Source: Spirochaetia bacterium
GTDB lineage: Bacteria; Spirochaetota; Spirochaetia; Treponematales; Breznakiellaceae
Reading direction: 5' to 3'
Assembly (NCBI GenBank): GCA_025997655.1
Contig: BNUW01000021.1
Location: forward strand, 1-23,198
Length of the DNA: 23,198 nt
Part shown: positions 1 to 12,078 of the stretch, one piece after another
How positions within the stretch are numbered: the first letter of the stretch is position 1
Layout of the letters: every line of letters begins with the position of its first letter
The notes under the pieces: generated by a model
Seen by the model: the letters and a program-made list of their open reading frames with translations, nothing else
Told to the model about the DNA's origin: nothing
The model's database searches: none
Program-made: the position numbers and the translations under genes

Positions 1-1273
1 ATACTTCTTCCGACTGTTTTTCAAGCCACTTATGAAAACTTACTATTATTGGTGTGCATCTCCGGATCCGTTCTTCAAGGAACTCCTCCAATGATATGAT
101 ACGCTCTTTCACCTTTTCCTGCAAATCTTTTTCAACGGTGTACAGCCCCTTTATGTATGAGATAGCCTCTGCTGCGCCGCATGTTTTTTCAGTCCCTACT
201 GCCCCCGCCGCTTTCATTGCTTCAAAGAACTTTCTTCGGGCATGGGCAAAACAGCCGACATGAACAACATCCGGATATCCTATAAGAGCAGCATTATAGC
301 TACCCCATCCGTCCGTTTGTAGGTATCCCTTGAAACCCTCAAGAAAGGGAATCACATTTTCGCTCGCACGGGTTTCATTGTATTCATAGAAAAGCGCCGG
401 TTTGTCCGGCGGCCCGCCGCGGGCAAGCCACATATACGATTTGCAGGTATTGCTTCGGCCCGGTTCACGCATTACCTCCATCGGCGTTTCGTCCATCTGC
501 ATCACTTCGCCGCTTTTCACATGGACTTTTAGTTTTTCTATCAGGGGTTCCAGCCGTTTCCCTGTCTTCATCTGCCAATTACTCATGTCCTGCCGGGATA
601 TATTCACTCCGATTCGTTCAAAACCCGCTTCCTGACGATAATACGGCACATGATCGTCATATTTCTTCACAAATATATAACTTAACAATCCCGCCGTCGC
701 TATGCTTCCCGGCATGATGGTTTCCGGTACTTTCCCGGTCCGTACTGCTGGTTTGCCTTCGTCCCCGGACCCTTCGCAATGATGACACGCATATTTTTTT
801 ACATGATACTGCTCAACATATATCTGTTCCGGTATTATTACTAATCGTTCCGTTATGTCTTCGCCAATGCAGACCAAGGGATGCCCGCAGGCGCACTGTT
901 TGTCTTCTTCTGGTATATCTACCGGTATTGCTACGCGGGGGATTTTGGGGTCAATCGGTTTACGTCCCTTAGCGTTCCGAATGTGGGCTTTTACCGGTGT
1001 GCCCGCAGGCTCAGGTGGTGCTGATTTACTCTCCGGGATTTCTTCGTTCCCAAACAGAGACTGCTGCCCTTTCCCGATAAACCGTTCGCTTGCCCGGCCA
1101 AATTGCCGGAACAGAGCCAGCCGTAACCTTTCTTCAAGCCGCTGGTTTTCCGCTTCAAGTTCTTTCCGCTGTTTCGTATTTTCATCAAGGGCGTGTTTTA
1201 ATTCTTTATTTTCGTTTTCAATTCGAAGAATATAGTTTTTTATTTCATCGCCTATTGTGGCTGCCATTTCCAT
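1..1273 (-). CDS. tnpC: IS66 family transposase TnpC, C-terminus beyond the window
   Basis: This is the DDE transposase of the IS66 element. The frame is open from an ATG at 1273 (or the in-frame ATG at 1267) to the window edge, about 424 codons. The N-terminus is a Leu/Glu/Lys-rich coiled-coil segment followed by the family motif LALFRQFGRASER. A zinc-finger-like region follows (CACGHP, later CHHCEG). The catalytic domain shows the first Asp in MQMDETP and the second in LQTDGWGSY, then HVGCFAHARRKF, which is typical of IS66. The catalytic Glu and the C-terminal domain lie outside the window. It begins 53 nt after tnpB. No good ribosome binding site precedes it, and a perfect 14-bp inverted repeat encloses the start codons, so its translation may be restrained. 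Confidence 0.93.
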   Translation of the reverse strand, partial: MEMAATIGDEIKNYILRIENENKELKHALDENTKQRKELEAENQRLEERLRLALFRQFGRASERFIGKGQQSLFGNEEIPESKSAPPEPAGTPVKAHIRNAKGRKPIDPKIPRVAIPVDIPEEDKQCACGHPLVCIGEDITERLVIIPEQIYVEQYHVKKYACHHCEGSGDEGKPAVRTGKVPETIMPGSIATAGLLSYIFVKKYDDHVPYYRQEAGFERIGVNISRQDMSNWQMKTGKRLEPLIEKLKVHVKSGEVMQMDETPMEVMREPGRSNTCKSYMWLARGGPPDKPALFYEYNETRASENVIPFLEGFKGYLQTDGWGSYNAALIGYPDVVHVGCFAHARRKFFEAMKAAGAVGTEKTCGAAEAISYIKGLYTVEKDLQEKVKERIISLEEFLEERIRRCTPIIVSFHKWLEKQSEEV

Positions 1274-3601: not shown

Positions 3602-3738
3602 CGGGAGGAGAGGGGCGTGACGGGCCGAATGCATTTGGGTTTCCCCGCGTAGGGAGACCTATTTGGGCCCCTTGGGGCCGGGCTCCCGGAGTGGATTCCC
3701 CCAACAGCATGAGCGCCCGGCATGCCCCTCTCCTCCCG
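3602..3738. other. Strongly folded 137-bp intergenic element
   Basis: CGGGAGGAGAGGGGC (3602-3616) and GCCCCTCTCCTCCCG (3724-3738) form a perfect 15-bp inverted repeat. Between them lie further potential stems: GGTTTCCC with GGGAGACC around a CGCGTA loop (one G-U), GGCCCC-TT-GGGGCC, and CCGGGC with GCCCGG. It therefore folds as a multi-branched structure. It lies between the ends of two convergent genes, 17 nt after the butyrate kinase stop. No protein-coding content is apparent. It could be a structured RNA, a miniature inverted-repeat element or an elaborate terminator; no known RNA family is recognised. Confidence 0.55.
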
Positions 3739-3754: not shown

Positions 3755-5182
3755 TCAATGGTACTGCGCGGCCTCTTCTGTTCCGCCGAGAACCCTGCGG
3801 ACACCGCTTACCAGGGCAAGCATTTCGTCCTCCCCGGGAAACACATGAACCGGGGCGAGCTTGTCCACGCGCTGTTTGATCGCACCGGTAAAGCGGGTTG
3901 AATAGGCAAGGCCGCCGGTGAGGATGATCGCGTCCACAAGCCCTTCAAGTACGGCAGCCATCGCTCCGATTTCTTTGGAAACCTGATAGGCCATGGAATC
4001 CAGCGCCAGGGCGGCAAACTCATCGCCATCGTTGATCATCTTCTGGATATCCCGCAGGTCGGCGGTTCCAAGATACGCCTTCATGCCGCCCTTGCCGGAA
4101 ATTTTTTCGATCATTTCCGCTTCGGTATATTCACCGGAAAAACACATATTGATAAGCGGAATAGCCGGAATCGAGCCGGTCCGCTCCGGGGTAAACGGCC
4201 CTTCGCCGGAAAGAGCGTCGTTGACGTCGATAACCCTGCCGTAGCGGTGCGCGCCGACCGTAATTCCACCGCCGAGGTGGGCCACAATAAAGCGGGTGTT
4301 TTCGTACTGCATACCGAGTTCCGCCGCAAGCCGGCGCGCGATGGCTTTCTGGTTGAGGGCGTGGAATACGCTGGAACGCTCAACGCCGGGCATGCCGGTA
4401 AGTTTGGCATTACGGTCCATTTCATCAACAACCACCGGATCCACAACATAGGCCGGAATCGAAAGCGGCCCGGCAATTTCCGCCGCGATAATCGCCCCCA
4501 ACGCGGAAGCGTGAATCGCCGCCGTGGCCGAGTGGAGATCCGTCAACATTTTCCGGTTGATAAGATACGTGCCGCTTTCGATAGGTTTTAAAAGCCCGCC
4601 CCGTCCCGCGACCGCGTCAAGGGAAGCATAGTCCAGGCCCGCTTCCTCAAGGCTTTTCATGATGCAGTCCCGCCTGAATTCCTTTTGATCCAGAACGGAG
4701 GCGCAGCGGGCAAGAGAAGCCGCGTCGTGCCGGATCGTTTTTTTCAGGATGCATTTTTCGTTGTCGTAAAGGCCGAATTTAGTTGAAGTAGAACCCGGAT
4801 TGATCGCGAGTATACGCAACGCGCCCGCTGTTTTCGGCGGAATTGTTACCGCAGCTTCGGAAAAAGGCGCCTGTTCCGGCGAATCCTGGGGGCGGCGGCG
4901 GAGGATTTTCCGGCCGTTCCGGATCATGGCGACGCTCAGCACGCAGTCCAGGTTGAGGATTCTGTCCATCACCTGGGCAAGTTTGGTATGGGTTCCCTCA
5001 ATGTCTATTTCCATGGTAGACGTACCCGCGCCGCCGGTTTTGTCCAGAGGCTTTTCGTCCTCGTCCACGATAAGGCGCTTGATATTCCAGCCTTCGTGGC
5101 GTATATGGCCGGCGACCCTGCCCAGTACGCCGGGCTTGTTCAGTACGGACAATTCTACCCGTTCTGTCTTTTTTGACTGCAT
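3755..5182 (-). CDS. ACT domain-butyrate kinase fusion protein
   Basis: The C-terminal region (about 122-475, 354 residues, a normal butyrate kinase length) is an acetokinase-family carboxylate kinase that interconverts acyl-phosphate plus ADP and carboxylate plus ATP. It shows INPGSTSTKFGLYD, VAHLGGGITVGAH, LSGEGPFTPERTGSIP and ILTGGLAYS. The specific subfamily is butyrate/branched-chain fatty acid kinase. Residues 9-87 are an extra N-terminal ACT domain resembling the acetolactate synthase small subunit (LSVLNKPGVLGRVAGHIRHE, then STMEIDIEGTHTKLAQVMDR). A basic, Pro-rich linker (88-121) joins the two. The fusion is one continuous frame. No phosphotransbutyrylase gene adjoins it. The start lacks a Shine-Dalgarno, but a TATACT hexamer ends 5 nt before the ATG. 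Substrate and effector are inferred, not shown. Confidence 0.88.
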   Translation of the reverse strand: MQSKKTERVELSVLNKPGVLGRVAGHIRHEGWNIKRLIVDEDEKPLDKTGGAGTSTMEIDIEGTHTKLAQVMDRILNLDCVLSVAMIRNGRKILRRRPQDSPEQAPFSEAAVTIPPKTAGALRILAINPGSTSTKFGLYDNEKCILKKTIRHDAASLARCASVLDQKEFRRDCIMKSLEEAGLDYASLDAVAGRGGLLKPIESGTYLINRKMLTDLHSATAAIHASALGAIIAAEIAGPLSIPAYVVDPVVVDEMDRNAKLTGMPGVERSSVFHALNQKAIARRLAAELGMQYENTRFIVAHLGGGITVGAHRYGRVIDVNDALSGEGPFTPERTGSIPAIPLINMCFSGEYTEAEMIEKISGKGGMKAYLGTADLRDIQKMINDGDEFAALALDSMAYQVSKEIGAMAAVLEGLVDAIILTGGLAYSTRFTGAIKQRVDKLAPVHVFPGEDEMLALVSGVRRVLGGTEEAAQYH

Positions 5183-5456: not shown

Positions 5457-6194
5457 TCATGGCAGCGGCTCGCCCCCATTCAGTATGGTAATTTCCACCC
5501 GGTTGTTCAGGCTGCGGCCTGTATTGGTGTCGTTGCTGACCAGGGGGTGGGTGCAGCCCCAGGTCCGGAAGAACAGGCGGTTTTCGTTTATGCCCCGGCT
5601 TTTCAGGGCTTCCACCAGGCCTTGGGCCCGCCGGAAGGACAGGTCCATGTCCCCGGCGAAGCTGCCGGTGGGGGCGGTATGTCCATCCACCAGGATCAGC
5701 GCGTTCTGTGGGAGACGCTTGAGCATGGCGGCCAGGGTGTCCAGGCGGTAGTATTCCGTGGGCAGGAACTGGTCCTGACCGGCTGCAAAATGGATAACAC
5801 GCTCCATATCCCCGGGTGGTGACGGGGCAAGGCTGGCCCAACTGGAAATTGGGGGCTGCCTCCCCCTTGCCACGGGCAGCGGATTGTATAATTCAGGGTT
5901 AGAGGTGTCGGAAAATAGCGATGGCAATTCCCGTTCCCTCTCCGGGATGACATTAAGGGACGGCATGTCGGCAGCAGCGGCAGGGCGGGATGACGCGCGA
6001 TTTAACGGCGGAGCGGCGGCGGCAGGACGCGGCGGTGGTGTACCGTCAGCGGCGGTACCGGGGCGGCTGGCTCTGAACACTTCGGCGCCGGCAGTGGCAT
6101 AGCTCTGCGATTCCTGCGATGGCTGGTCGGCGGCGGCAGCAAGGACAGGAAGGGCAAGTAGGGCTACTAAGAGATAAGCGAAGAATAATCGCAT
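5457..6194 (-). CDS. OmpA-like cell-envelope protein
   Basis: A 245-residue exported protein. Residues 1-22 are a signal peptide (MRLFFAYLLVALLALPVLAA). Next is a long low-complexity Ala/Pro/Arg segment, probably a flexible spacer. The C-terminal ~110 residues form an OmpA/MotB-type peptidoglycan-binding domain: IHFAAGQDQFLPTEYYRLD, LILVDGHTAPTGS, LSFRRAQGLVEALKSRGI, and a terminal SLNNRVEITIL matching the conserved NRRVEI region. It probably sits in the periplasm and anchors to murein. The ATG at 6194 has GGAAG at suitable spacing; a GTG one codon upstream is the alternative. It is divergent from the gene at 6314. Confidence 0.85.
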   Translation of the reverse strand: MRLFFAYLLVALLALPVLAAAADQPSQESQSYATAGAEVFRASRPGTAADGTPPPRPAAAAPPLNRASSRPAAAADMPSLNVIPERERELPSLFSDTSNPELYNPLPVARGRQPPISSWASLAPSPPGDMERVIHFAAGQDQFLPTEYYRLDTLAAMLKRLPQNALILVDGHTAPTGSFAGDMDLSFRRAQGLVEALKSRGINENRLFFRTWGCTHPLVSNDTNTGRSLNNRVEITILNGGEPLP

Positions 6195-6246
6195 CACTTT
6201 CTTCCTTCTTCTATTTCCTATTTATATCGGAATATTTTCAGGATAA

Positions 6247-7382: not shown

Positions 7383-7411
7383 TTGCTTCCCCGGGCTTTA
7401 TGGAGTATACT
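7383..7411 (+). promoter_or_regulatory. Putative hydF promoter
   Basis: TTGCTT (7383-7388), a 17-nt spacer and TATACT (7406-7411). Only six nucleotides separate the -10 from the ATG at 7418, so the predicted transcript start coincides with the start codon. Confidence 0.45.
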
Positions 7412-7417
7412 AGTCAC

Positions 7418-8626
7418 ATGGGATTAAACGAAACCCCTTCGGCGAACAGGGTTCACATCGGCTTTTTCGGCCTGCGGAATGCGGGCAAATCCAGCTTGGT
7501 CAACGCCGTGACCAACCAGGATCTGGTTATCGTTTCTGACGTCAAGGGTACCACCACGGACCCGGTTTCTAAGTCCATGGAACTGCTCCCCCTGGGGCCG
7601 GTGCTGATCATCGACACTCCGGGGATTGACGACGAGGGCGCATTGGGCGAACTCCGGGTCCGCCGGGCGCGGCAGGTTCTCAACAAAACCGATGTGGCGG
7701 TCCTGGTGGTGGACGCCCTTACCGGCAAGTCCCCTGCGGATGAGGACCTTATCAGGCTGTTCCGGGACAAGGATGTTCCCTTCATCATCGCTTACAATAA
7801 AAGTGACTTGCTTGAAAAGGCGCCCGAACCTACTGGCGAGAACTGCATTTATGTCAGCGCCACGGAGAAGCGTAATATAGAAGAATTGAAGGAGCAGATC
7901 GCCGCTCTGGCCAAGACCGATGAGCCGAAGCTGCAAATTGTGGGGGACATCATCAGCCCCGGTGATTTTGTGGTGCTGGTGATCCCCATCGACAAGGCCG
8001 CGCCTAAGGGCCGGCTGATCCTCCCCCAGCAGCAGACCATCCGGGATATTCTGGAGGCCGATGCCGCCGCCGTGGTGGTGAAGGAATTTGAGCTGCGGGA
8101 AACCCTGGAGAACATCGGCAAGAAACCCGCTCTGGTGATCACCGACAGCCAGGTCTTCGCCAAGGTTTCTGCGGACACCCCGGCGGATATTCCCCTCACC
8201 TCGTTTTCCATCCTCTTCGCCCGGTACAAGGGCTTCCTCGCCCCGGCGGTTCGGGGGGTGCGGATGCTGGACTCGATTAATGAAAAGAGCCGTATCCTCA
8301 TCGCCGAAGGCTGCACCCACCACCGGCAGTGTGACGATATCGGCAGAGTAAAACTGCCCCGGTGGATCAAGCAGTACACGGGCAAGGAGCCGGAGTTTGC
8401 CTTTACCTCCGGCGGCGAATTCCCCGAAGACCTTTCCTCTTATGACCTTGTCCTCCACTGCGGGGCCTGTATGCTCAACGAGCGGGAGGTGCGGTACCGG
8501 GAGGCCTGCGCTGCGGACCAGGGGATACCCTTTACCAATTACGGCATCACCATTGCCCACATCCAGGGCATCCTGAAACGGAGCGTCGCCATATTCCCCC
8601 ACATCCTCGCCGAGCTTGAGGAATGA
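7418..8626 (+). CDS. hydF: [FeFe]-hydrogenase H-cluster maturation GTPase HydF
   Basis: HydF is the scaffold on which the 2Fe subcluster of the [FeFe]-hydrogenase H-cluster is built with HydE and HydG before transfer to the apo-enzyme. The 402-residue protein starts MGLNETPSANRVHIGFFG. Its GTPase domain shows Walker A GLRNAGKSS, KGTTTDPV, DTPG, NKSD and SATEK. A middle dimerisation domain is followed by the iron-sulfur domain with EGCTHHRQCDD and HCGACM, giving the three cysteines and the His expected for the 4Fe-4S site. An in-frame ATG at 7400 is disfavoured because family members begin near MGLN. hydE, hydG and the hydrogenase are not in this window. Confidence 0.96.
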   Translation: MGLNETPSANRVHIGFFGLRNAGKSSLVNAVTNQDLVIVSDVKGTTTDPVSKSMELLPLGPVLIIDTPGIDDEGALGELRVRRARQVLNKTDVAVLVVDALTGKSPADEDLIRLFRDKDVPFIIAYNKSDLLEKAPEPTGENCIYVSATEKRNIEELKEQIAALAKTDEPKLQIVGDIISPGDFVVLVIPIDKAAPKGRLILPQQQTIRDILEADAAAVVVKEFELRETLENIGKKPALVITDSQVFAKVSADTPADIPLTSFSILFARYKGFLAPAVRGVRMLDSINEKSRILIAEGCTHHRQCDDIGRVKLPRWIKQYTGKEPEFAFTSGGEFPEDLSSYDLVLHCGACMLNEREVRYREACAADQGIPFTNYGITIAHIQGILKRSVAIFPHILAELEE

Positions 8627-10029
8627 GGGCTGATGCGGTGAGGAAAGAACGGGACGAACTGGGAGAACGGGATTTACCCGATGAAGCCCTCTATGGCCTC
8701 CAAAGTCTCCGGGCGGAGGAAAACTTTTCCCTGGACAATAGAAAAACTAACCGTCGGCTTATTTACGCCATAGTGAAGATCAAAAAAGCTGCGGCATTGA
8801 GTTACCGGAAAATTGCAGCCGATCCAAAGCATGACAACGATTCGGAGAGCGGACCGGGCTCCAGTGGCGGCAAGCCGGACAAAGCGGAAATCTGCGGGGC
8901 TATCGTTGCGGCCTGCGACAAAATCCTCGCGGGGGAAACGGAGGACGCCTTTATTGTTGACGCTCTTCAGGGCGGGGCGGGGACTTCCACCAACATGAAC
9001 GTCAACGAGGTGATCGCCAATCTTGCCCTGAAAATCCTGGGAAAACCGGCGGGGTCCTACGATATCATTCATCCGCTGGACGACGTGAACCGCCTACAGT
9101 CCACCAATGATGTGTATCCAACCGGCCTGCGTATCGCCGCCATAGAATTGCTGCGGGAATTGAGCGAGGGCTGCGCAAAACTGCAGGAGGCGCTTCAAAA
9201 AAGGGAAAACGAATTTGAGGATGTTAAAAAGCTTGGCCGCACGGAATTGCAGGACGCGGTGCCCATAAGCCTGGGGGCGGAGTTCGGCGCGTATGCCCAA
9301 GCCATAGGCCGGGACCGGTGGCGGCTCTACAAGGTAGAGGAACGGCTGCGGCAGGTAAACCTTGGGGGCGCCGCGGTAGGCTTTTCGAACAAACAGACAA
9401 CCCGCTGGCGTTTCGAGGTGTTAGAAGAACTGCGCTCCCTTACCGGCATGGGCTTGGCCGCCGCGGAATACCCCATGGACCTTACCCAGAACAATGATGT
9501 GTTTGTGGAAGTGTCGGGGCTCCTGAAAAGCCTGGGGGTTAACCTCACCAAGATTGCCAACGACCTCCGGCTCATGAGTTCCGGCCCCCACGGCGGGCTG
9601 GGAGAAATCAAGCTTGCCCCCATGCAGAAGGGGAGCACCATCATGCCCGGCAAGGTGAACCCGGTTATCCCGGAGATGATCATCCAGGTAGGGATCCGGG
9701 TGGCCGCCAATGATTTTGCCATCACCGCCGCAGCAGCCCGTGGGGAACTGGAACTCAACGCATTCTCCCCCCTCATTGCCGATGCGCTTCTGGAAAGCCT
9801 TTCCCTGCTGAACCGCGGAGTGTACCTCTTCCGTACCAAGTGCGTAGAAACACTAACGGCGAACCGGGAACGCTGTGCGGAATTGCTGGCCGCTTCCTAT
9901 GCCTTTGCCGCTTCCCATATTGGTCGGCTGGGGTATGACCGGGTTGCCGGAATAGTCGCGGAAAATCAGGGGGACCCGGAGCGGATCAGGCGGGCTTTGG
10001 AGGACGAAGGTGGAACTGATAATCGGTGA
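8623..10029 (+). CDS. Aspartate ammonia-lyase-like protein coupled to hydF
   Basis: A 468-residue member of the aspartase/fumarase superfamily, probably converting aspartate to fumarate and ammonia. Visible motifs are DELGERDLPDEALYGLQSLR, GGAGTSTNMNVNEVIAN, DVNRLQSTNDVYPTGLR, GRTELQDAVPISLGAEF and the superfamily signature GSTIMPGKVNPVIPEM. Residues 67-86 hold a polar Asp/Ser/Gly-rich insertion (HDNDSESGPGSSGGKPDK) in a segment usually shorter in aspartases. The ATG overlaps the hydF stop (ATGA), implying translational coupling; an in-frame GTG at 8638 (giving VRKERDELGE) is a plausible alternative because homologues start close to that point. Its link to hydrogenase maturation is suggested by position; the substrate is inferred. 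Confidence 0.9.
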   Translation: MRADAVRKERDELGERDLPDEALYGLQSLRAEENFSLDNRKTNRRLIYAIVKIKKAAALSYRKIAADPKHDNDSESGPGSSGGKPDKAEICGAIVAACDKILAGETEDAFIVDALQGGAGTSTNMNVNEVIANLALKILGKPAGSYDIIHPLDDVNRLQSTNDVYPTGLRIAAIELLRELSEGCAKLQEALQKRENEFEDVKKLGRTELQDAVPISLGAEFGAYAQAIGRDRWRLYKVEERLRQVNLGGAAVGFSNKQTTRWRFEVLEELRSLTGMGLAAAEYPMDLTQNNDVFVEVSGLLKSLGVNLTKIANDLRLMSSGPHGGLGEIKLAPMQKGSTIMPGKVNPVIPEMIIQVGIRVAANDFAITAAAARGELELNAFSPLIADALLESLSLLNRGVYLFRTKCVETLTANRERCAELLAASYAFAASHIGRLGYDRVAGIVAENQGDPERIRRALEDEGGTDNR

Positions 10030-10152: not shown

Positions 10153-12078
10153 CTACGCAAACAGCGCCTCGTCGGTATGGGGCAGGAAACAGGCCGCAAC
10201 AAATTCATCCATATAACTCGGATGGGAGGACAATTCCAGGTAGGTCATGCTTTGGGCGATTTCGCTCACCTTCGCGGCCGCCCCGGCGGAATTGACCATG
10301 GCATAGGCCCCGGTGAGGCTGGTATTGCCGATATAGTGGTACTTCTCCAGGGGGATCTTGGGGAACATGCCGATACGGATGGCTTTTTCCACATTGATAC
10401 CGCTCCCGATACCGCCAGCCACAAAGACTTCCTCAATGCCGTCAATGGAAAAGTCCATAATCGCCATCATGGTTCTGATGGCGGAGAAAATTGCCCCCTT
10501 GGCCCGGATAAAGCTGTCGATATCCGTCTCGTTCAGGGCAATATCCGCTCCGGTAGCGCTGTCTGCGGCAAAGGCGAGGACATAGCTGGCGGCGCCGTAT
10601 TCATCCCGGCTGATCCGCTTGCCGTCCCGGATGATTTTCCCCTTGGCGTTGATGATCTGGCACCGGAAAAGTTCCCCGATGGTGTCGATAAGCCCGGAAC
10701 CGCAGAGACCGCCGGCCTTCTGGCCTGCGTCCCCTATAATGGAAACGGTGGGCTCCATGCTTTCGGCGTCGATGGAGCAGGCTTCTATGGCCCCGTCGGT
10801 GGCCCGCATACCGCAACTGATGTCTCCGCCTTCGAAAGCGGGGCCGGCGGAACAGGCGCAGGACATGAGCAGATCCTGATTGCCTAAGACCAGTTCCCCG
10901 TTGGTACCCAGGTCAACGAAGAGGGAGAAGGTTTCCTTCTTATATATACCCGATGATAAGACCCCGGCGGTGATGTCCCCGCCAACGTAGCTGCCGATGT
11001 TGGGTGCCAGAAGCACTTCGGCGTCGGGGTTCAGGCTCAGGCCCAGGTCGAGGCTGCGGAAGCCATCTTTATGGAAAAAGGCCGGCACATAGGGTTCCAG
11101 CCGGAGGAAGTCCGCATAGACCCCGGTAAAGAGGTGGGCCATGGTGGTATTGCCTGCCATCACCGCCCGGTATATGGCCGTGCTCTCAATGCCCGCCTTG
11201 CTACATATCTCAGCAATCAGGGGAAGGATGGTATCCTCCATCACTGCATTCCGCAGCCGCTCCAGGCCGCCCTTTTTCGTACTGGCAATGATGCGGCTGA
11301 TAACGTCCGCGCCAAAGCGGATCTGGCCATTGCCCCCGGAGCCGCCTGCCAGCAATTTCCCGTCCCGAAGGTTCGTGAGTACCATGGCTACCGTGGTGGT
11401 ACCGATGTCTATCGCCAGGCCCGGCAGAACAGACTGATCCCCGGCGCTTGCGGGAAGGACATCCAGGATCAAATCCCGGGACTCGCCCTTCCTGACGACA
11501 CATATAATAGAAAAGTTTGATTCACGCAAGGTTTGGGGGAGCTTCCGCAGGGCGAAAATGCCCAGTTCCGCTTCTCCACCGGTGGTTTCGGTATACATAG
11601 CCAGGAGCCGTTCCCGGTCTGCCATGGCATCGTCCAAAGCGGGGGACGTCAGGGTGAGGGCGACGGTTTCGATACCGCTGTCACCCCGGTAGCCCAGCTC
11701 GTCCAGGTCCTTGCCCAGGGCGTCAAAGGCGGCCCGTTCCCGGCCTTCGCTGAGGTCCGTTACTTTGATGCGGCTCTTAAAGGCTCCGGCGGAAGCGGGC
11801 ACCTCGACCTTCAGATCCGATGTGGGCTTAATACCGCAGGCCAGCCGCCAACCACCGGTGTATTCCTCCGGGCTAATGTGCCGGGGGACTTCCCCCTCCA
11901 CGGTCCCTTCAAGGAGCTTCACCCGGCATTTGCCGCAGGTCCCATTCCCCGAGCAGGGGGCATCTATATCGACTCCGGCTTTCCGGGCGGTCTCCAGGAG
12001 GGTTTCCCCCTCGGGGGCAAGGGCGGTAACGGCGGCTCCGCCCTCGATGCTAAAAAGTATCTGGCAGTTGGTACTCAT
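10153..12078 (-). CDS. ASKHA-domain ferredoxin protein, corrinoid-protein reductive activator (RACo)-like
   Basis: This 641-residue protein resembles RACo/RamA-type activators, which use ATP to reduce inactive Co(II) corrinoid proteins to Co(I). The N-terminal ~95 residues form a [2Fe-2S] ferredoxin domain with Cys42, Cys48, Cys51 and Cys81 (C-x5-C-x2-C-x29-C). A linker domain follows, then a C-terminal ASKHA (actin-like ATPase) region with PGLAIDIGTTTVAMVL, AVMAGNTTMAHLFTG, FVDLGTNGELVLG, CACSAGPAFEGG and FVAGGIGSGINVEKA. Length and domain order fit the family. It is a single-gene unit, and no corrinoid protein, methyltransferase or cobalamin gene adjoins it, so the partner is unknown. The ATG has no Shine-Dalgarno; a TTGACA/TAAAAT promoter ends 9 nt upstream. 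Confidence 0.9.
   Translation of the reverse strand: MSTNCQILFSIEGGAAVTALAPEGETLLETARKAGVDIDAPCSGNGTCGKCRVKLLEGTVEGEVPRHISPEEYTGGWRLACGIKPTSDLKVEVPASAGAFKSRIKVTDLSEGRERAAFDALGKDLDELGYRGDSGIETVALTLTSPALDDAMADRERLLAMYTETTGGEAELGIFALRKLPQTLRESNFSIICVVRKGESRDLILDVLPASAGDQSVLPGLAIDIGTTTVAMVLTNLRDGKLLAGGSGGNGQIRFGADVISRIIASTKKGGLERLRNAVMEDTILPLIAEICSKAGIESTAIYRAVMAGNTTMAHLFTGVYADFLRLEPYVPAFFHKDGFRSLDLGLSLNPDAEVLLAPNIGSYVGGDITAGVLSSGIYKKETFSLFVDLGTNGELVLGNQDLLMSCACSAGPAFEGGDISCGMRATDGAIEACSIDAESMEPTVSIIGDAGQKAGGLCGSGLIDTIGELFRCQIINAKGKIIRDGKRISRDEYGAASYVLAFAADSATGADIALNETDIDSFIRAKGAIFSAIRTMMAIMDFSIDGIEEVFVAGGIGSGINVEKAIRIGMFPKIPLEKYHYIGNTSLTGAYAMVNSAGAAAKVSEIAQSMTYLELSSHPSYMDEFVAACFLPHTDEALFA

Follow-up and report, generated by a model that had tools for sequence, protein, structure and literature searches.

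A conserved and apparently undescribed fusion of butyrate kinase with an ACT domain that keeps the amino-acid-site signature

Introduction

ACT domains regulate enzymes of amino-acid metabolism such as aspartate kinase and phosphoglycerate dehydrogenase (PDB 3aaw and 1psd), which have another enzyme fold and belong to another pathway than the protein reported here. With respect to the ACT domains of AHAS small subunits, passages of two reports tie residues L9, N11, L16, N29 and V35 of IlvH (PMC11893703) and residues N86, G89 and N104 of the yeast protein (PMC8406616) to valine. As for the activation of short acids, the Buk/Ptb pair of Listeria is described in part of one paper as activating external 2-methylbutyrate (PMC10026030), and an excerpt of another describes rumen anaerobes as forming valine, leucine and isoleucine from the precursors isobutyrate, isovalerate and 2-methylbutyrate (PMC7356843).

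The combination of both elements was not met in the titles or abstract openings of the related literature. The terms "butyrate kinase" and "ACT domain" occurred together in none of 5.39 million open full texts, and "butyrate kinase", "amino acid-binding" and "Treponema" had no joint mention in the open full-text literature. Since most subscription papers lie outside the searched literature, this is weak evidence of novelty. In this study, we report a gene in which an ACT domain of the AHAS-small-subunit type is joined to a butyrate kinase, together with its distribution and its genomic context.

Results

Structure of the fusion gene

The window, that is, the whole stretch of DNA that was analysed, comprises 23,198 nucleotides of contig BNUW01000021.1 (assembly GCA_025997655.1) from a Spirochaetia bacterium. 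On its minus strand, the ORF at 3755-5182 starts with ATG and encodes 475 amino acids with zero internal stops. Its parts are the following:

3755..5182, minus strand: ACT-butyrate kinase fusion gene, a single ORF of 475 amino acids (PF22629 and PF00871; TIGR02707 with 512 bits)
4919..5167, minus strand: ACT domain of the AHAS-small-subunit type, residues 6-88 (PF22629 at residues 10-82; AlphaFold2 order b-a-b-b-a-b; PDB matches IlvN/IlvH)
4820..4918, minus strand: basic, proline-containing linker, residues 89-121, poorly conserved (conservation 0.45)
3758..4819, minus strand: butyrate kinase domain, residues 122-475, active-site residues conserved

An earlier note on this DNA had read here, without naming a strand, one frame made of an ACT domain, a basic proline-rich linker and a complete kinase. 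The reading is borne out by the minus-strand ORF, which matches both Pfam PF22629 and NCBIfam TIGR02707. The N-terminus scores as ACT with 34.1 bits against a PF22629 cut-off of 27, the limits being residues 10-82 in Pfam and 6-88 in the AlphaFold2 models (9-87 had been claimed), and the linker at residues 89-121 is basic at its beginning and holds several prolines. Promoter and terminator scans gave hits at chance level only.

Both PF22629 and PF00871 were matched at E<=1e-3 in each of 80 aligned relatives. Among these, the most frequent residue of a position had an average share of 0.81 in the ACT core (residues 7-44 and 55-88) and 0.82 in the kinase (residues 122-471), compared with 0.45 in the linker (residues 89-116) and 0.22 in the loop at residues 45-54.

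The kinase part matched the NCBIfam butyrate kinase model TIGR02707 over residues 123-471 with 512.4 bits against 289.1, covering model positions 1-349 of 351, and Pfam Acetate_kinase (PF00871) with 74.5 bits (cut-off 22). Its matches among PDB sequences were Thermotoga butyrate kinase 2, followed by acetate and propionate kinases. Residues N128, H224, D248, H302, R334 and E451, which together with R194 correspond to the acetokinase active-site positions of acetate kinase, were present in 80 of the 80 relatives, and R194 in 96%.

Regarding the ACT part, the AlphaFold2 monomer models gave the secondary-structure order b-a-b-b-a-b over residues 6-88, and the best PDB matches of the model of this part were AHAS regulatory subunits, with the valine complex of IlvN (5ypp) as the top match by Foldseek and two valine-bound entries, 5ypp and 6vz8, among the nearest structures. 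When the profile of this part was compared with PDB sequences (E<=0.01), six matches were obtained, all of them AHAS small subunits. The likeness is to the ACT type only, as the whole-protein model of the AHAS small subunit (TIGR00119) was matched with 30.1 bits, below its cut-off of 56.9, and the ACT part covers only positions 6-84 of this 158-position NCBIfam model.

By alignment, the positions tied to valine in the passages cited above correspond in the fusion protein (P0001) to V13 (for IlvH L9), N15, L20, N33 and V39, and to G18 (for yeast G89). They are 90-100% conserved in 80 sequences, V13, N15, G18 and N33 being invariant, L20 conserved in 99% and V39 in at least 90%. In addition, the fused proteins retain H26 (97.5%) and R28, E30 and W32 (100%), which the two aligned AHAS small subunits do not share; these residues may be a peculiarity of the fused group. 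Control of the kinase by an amino acid, as the earlier note had suggested, is quite probable given an ACT domain of the AHAS-regulatory type that keeps the valine-linked positions; the link to energy metabolism proposed along with it is less well supported.

Distribution and phylogeny

In a search with the full protein, precomputed annotation placed both domains in 108 of the best 120 of 7999 scored candidates. The named entries among these best 120 were mostly called butyrate kinase, and the organism, where given, was Treponema sp. or Spirochaetaceae. With residues 1-95 as query, 113 of 204 candidates matched, and 108 of the 113 carried PF22629 and PF00871 in their precomputed domains; the other five had PF22629 only (three proteins of 263-295 amino acids) or PF00871 only (two proteins). 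The two sets overlap, and the resulting count of two-domain proteins, at least 108, is a lower bound. Because so many database proteins bear both domains, the fusion is not a sequencing artefact, and neither a sequencing error nor two genes run together can explain it.

When one genome of each species was scanned for two short ACT patterns, a method that misses relatives lacking them, 26 loci were obtained, 19 spirochaetal and seven from Bacillota, the latter named Oscillospiraceae, Christensenellaceae, Peptococcaceae or Firmicutes. The architecture is found among spirochaetes and also more widely, Bacillota included. A sample of 247 spirochaete genomes, in which the window's family had few members, contained the fusion only in the window's own genome, while 37 others matching at E<=1e-60 aligned only from residue 98 or later. 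Likewise, among 43 genomes from the class of one Bacillota member, the fusion occurred in that member alone.

The window's family appears to be that of the termite-gut Breznakiellaceae, judging by the isolate codes of the named loci, which are those of termite-gut studies, and by part of one paper (PMC13067680). Its 145 genomes included 32 with a match at E<=1e-20, of which 17 had the fused kinase (16 of them complete, and G005 in pieces at contig edges) and 15 a plain kinase only (including the partial G029 and G101, assigned as plain by low identity). Two fused genomes, G083 and G023, encode a plain butyrate kinase (Buk) alongside the fused one.

In a tree of 70 kinases, from which identical rows and kinase matches shorter than 300 residues were dropped and to which 14 database proteins without organism were added by choice, the 39 fused rows formed one clade inside the butyrate kinases (89/69, which places it outside the strongly supported branches). 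For the spirochaetes, the 19 fused rows formed one group (98/92), and the named Bacillota rows fell in several groups. A single fusion event with transfer between phyla would be the simplest reading of this tree and has moderate support. The unfused kinases L044/L077 (G073) and L101 (G422), 61% and 59% identical, branch beside the fused clade and may be either its nearest plain relatives or cases of ACT-domain loss; an ACT match was searched for in L044 and none was found.

Gene neighbourhood and ptb

The gene immediately upstream of the fusion gene is the following:

5457..6197, minus strand: OmpA-family gene (PF00691)

Among the loci compared, this neighbour was common only to the window, L001 (which is the same place) and L003. 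No neighbour family was found in more than seven loci when the window and 28 loci were considered, many of them short and with neighbours annotated by sample. The genes of 730 and 202 amino acids lying upstream in some loci had been candidates for IorA/IorB, and were rejected after the two tested, from L009, proved to be GlgX and an NT5C-type nucleotidase. In the Bacillota locus L021, a radical-SAM pair (TIGR03960/TIGR03936) adjoins.

A ptb match within 5 kb on the same contig was present for none of 16 full-length fused genes vs. 14 of 20 full-length plain genes (Fisher p=1.3e-5, uncorrected for phylogeny), a comparison that leaves out the partial genes of G029, G101 and G083:C590 (plain) and G005 (fused), scores a ptb fragment at a contig end in G051 as ptb, and may miss pairs hidden by contig breaks. 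For 11 of the 20 plain genes, ptb lay within 300 bases. At the genome level, a strong ptb match (>=200 bits) was found in 4/17 fused, 11/15 plain-only and 3/113 Buk-less genomes, with the curated Ptb cut-off of 410.5 passed by none of the 145. Pta was found in 14 of the 17 fused genomes (G023 below cut-off) and in 106 of the 145 overall; G031, 96% complete, had neither Pta nor a strong Ptb match. In L076 (G073), matches to ptb, IOR alpha and buk are clustered on one contig, ptb being in two pieces, one with an internal stop.

Branched-chain pathway genes

Of the 17 fused genomes among the family's 145, 14 had no IlvC (E<=1e-10) and no IlvD above cut-off, with LeuA present; these 14 are 62-97% complete and related. 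IlvD and LeuA matches were counted to E 1e-120, a limit at which gene fragments next to contig ends may escape notice. The LeuA of G018 was partial and below cut-off, and G083 and G111 had IlvD-like matches also below cut-off (575 and 503 bits, respectively). Of the remaining three, G031 had IlvC and IlvD only, and the window's genome (G000, 70% complete) and its 99%-identical match G121 had all three genes. Given that ilvC, ilvD and leuA are kept in these two genomes, the fusion is there an addition and not a replacement, and a complete replacement of AHAS in the window's genome is not supported.

The 15 plain-only genomes comprised 13 with all three genes, one with LeuA only and one with none, while the 113 Buk-less genomes were divided into 40 with all three, 20 with LeuA only, 13 with none and 40 mixed. 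Expressed as fusion frequency, the fused gene was found in 14 of 35 LeuA-only genomes, in 2 of 55 with IlvC, IlvD and LeuA, and in 0 of 14 with none (14/35 vs. 2/55, Fisher p=1.7e-5, uncorrected for phylogeny). IlvC was present in 3/17 fused, 13/15 plain-only and 64/113 Buk-less genomes (fused vs. others p=0.0013, fused vs. plain-only p=0.0002, the genomes being related). All these counts treat related genomes as independent. At the genus level, ilvC was found in 2 of the 12 fusion-bearing genera vs. 35 of 44 others (p=1e-4), which lessens the kinship problem but does not remove it, because genera share ancestry too. In this regard, the loss of IlvC and IlvD looks like a lineage trait, since 20 LeuA-only genomes had no Buk and some of them belong to the genera of fused genomes. 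Among the Bacillota fused genomes, ilvC was present in three of seven, and two further Treponema (L005 and L010) were without it.

LeuA acts on 2-ketoisovalerate. Therefore, genomes with LeuA and without IlvC and IlvD require another source of this compound, which could be isobutyryl-CoA carboxylation or imported valine. IorA-like matches were present in 118 of the 145 genomes, below the family cut-off in every fused one, and for this frequency the presence of IOR was of no use as a discriminator of fused genomes. The assimilation model discussed below was formulated ahead of the pathway tests; two of its expectations, the presence of Ptb and the absence of AHAS, were not confirmed. The genes for the AHAS large subunit and cimA (citramalate synthase) adjoin in L083 (G018), L084 (G104) and L088 (G023); leuA joins them in L084 and L088, and the AHAS small subunit in L088. 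All three genomes are among those with neither IlvC nor an IlvD above cut-off.

Other features of the window

The rest of the window contained the following genes:

2-1273, minus strand: IS66-family transposase, at the left edge of the window
7400-8626, plus strand: HydF
8623-10029, plus strand: aspartate ammonia-lyase subfamily gene, with a 4-base overlap with the end of hydF
10153-12078, minus strand: AcsV-type corrinoid activation protein (925 bits, cut-off 800)

The predicted AcsV-type protein and HydF would be in keeping with a spirochaete that is acetogenic and metabolises hydrogen. Shortly beyond the 3' end of the fusion gene there is a 24-base inverted repeat (92%) at 3602-3625 and 3715-3738, with arms 89 bases apart. 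Its 15-base core occurs in the window only within the two arms, and an exact 14-base word of the repeat was found in none of the 108 loci scanned except L001, which is the same place.

Discussion

According to the sequence data, the fusion of butyrate kinase with an ACT domain is real and conserved, apparently undescribed, and retains an intact amino-acid-site signature. As regards its role, we give nearly even chances to an acid kinase that would work in the assimilating direction under feedback control by a branched-chain amino acid. The butyrate-kinase-family enzyme would phosphorylate a short, probably branched acid (isobutyrate, 2-methylbutyrate or isovalerate) to the acyl phosphate, and its activity would be set by a branched-chain amino acid, the ligand that we infer, held where the two ACT domains meet in a putative dimer, as in AHAS small subunits. 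The acyl phosphate would be converted to acyl-CoA by Pta or Ptb, and a ferredoxin-dependent 2-oxoacid oxidoreductase acting in reverse would then turn the acyl-CoA into the 2-oxo acid. This would finally give valine, leucine or isoleucine, the product presumably exerting feedback on the kinase. That the fused gene lies away from ptb, and mainly in genomes where IlvC and IlvD are missing and LeuA is kept, points to assimilation for amino-acid synthesis. The assimilation model does not account for the AHAS large subunit, which was above cut-off in 10 of the 14 fused genomes devoid of IlvC and IlvD.

In a broader and rather more doubtful form, the proposal would be that gut anaerobes without IlvC and IlvD import short branched acids and make their branched-chain amino acids by a substitute pathway, with an AHAS-type valine sensor transferred to the acid kinase at its entry for feedback control; a single origin of the fusion in Bacillota, followed by its passage to gut spirochaetes, may belong to this picture. 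If true, the acetate/butyrate kinase family would have a member under allosteric control, whose sensor comes from the enzyme whose pathway it would replace. The gene could then serve as a marker of bacteria that, as is known of rumen anaerobes, form branched-chain amino acids out of short branched acids, and both this activation step and its regulation would become directly testable.

The opposite direction must also be considered, in which the kinase would obtain ATP from acyl phosphate as the last step in the fermentation of branched-chain amino acids, with the ACT domain sensing amino-acid supply and responding by activation and not by feedback inhibition. The plain Buk genes, mostly beside ptb (14 of 20 within 5 kb, in G073 with an IOR alpha gene too), are consistent with such a dissimilatory role, and the genomes without IlvC and IlvD may import branched-chain amino acids. 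We nevertheless regard it as fairly unlikely for the fused kinase, whose gene was near ptb in 0 of 16 cases. Moreover, 13 of the 17 fused genomes had no strong Ptb match, and G083 and G023 have a plain Buk besides the fused one. LeuA in all 14 fused genomes devoid of IlvC and IlvD suggests leucine synthesis and not breakdown alone, although valine import could feed LeuA as well.

The Listeria pair, which activates external 2-methylbutyrate according to the part of the paper cited above (PMC10026030), would also agree with branched acids being activated for membrane fatty acids (FabH priming) and with the amino acid as a signal; this is unlikely, as it leaves the link to the kept LeuA and the missing IlvC and IlvD unexplained. 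It seems quite unlikely that the ACT domain mainly dimerises the kinase, docks it on a partner or has a different ligand, either a carboxylic acid or some other amino acid. ACT domains may indeed bind other ligands or serve as contacts, as that of AcuB with AcuC in an excerpt of one report (PMC13121692), and H26, R28, E30 and W32 are conserved here and not in the two aligned AHAS small subunits, but the positions tied to valine in the cited passages are kept. Finally, the lack of a conserved neighbourhood would suit an artefact or a decayed, functionless fusion, which is extremely improbable in view of at least 108 two-domain proteins, an ACT core conserved at 0.81 against 0.45 in the linker, and one clade spanning two phyla.

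Compared with described systems, the assimilatory acid kinase proposed here resembles AcuB, a Bateman-ACT protein that acts on the deacetylase AcuC controlling acetyl-CoA synthetase, in that an ACT domain takes part in the control of short-acid activation; as described in the same excerpt (PMC13121692), AcuB differs in being a separate protein that senses adenine nucleotides via CBS modules and is not fused to a kinase. Butyrate kinase (Buk; TIGR02707), represented by Thermotoga maritima Buk2 (PDB 1saz/1x9j), is alike in the whole kinase domain (residues 122-475), in the active-site residues and in fold. The fusion protein is distinguished from it by the N-terminal ACT domain and, unlike most plain Buk genes in the same bacterial family, by having no ptb close to its gene. 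The AHAS small subunit IlvN/IlvH (PF22629; PDB 5ypp, 2f1f and 6vz8) is alike in ACT family, fold and, as far as the passages cited describe them, valine-site residues, whereas in the fusion the ACT domain is joined to an acid kinase, and a free-standing AHAS small subunit is encoded as well in two of the genomes inspected, the window's own and G023.
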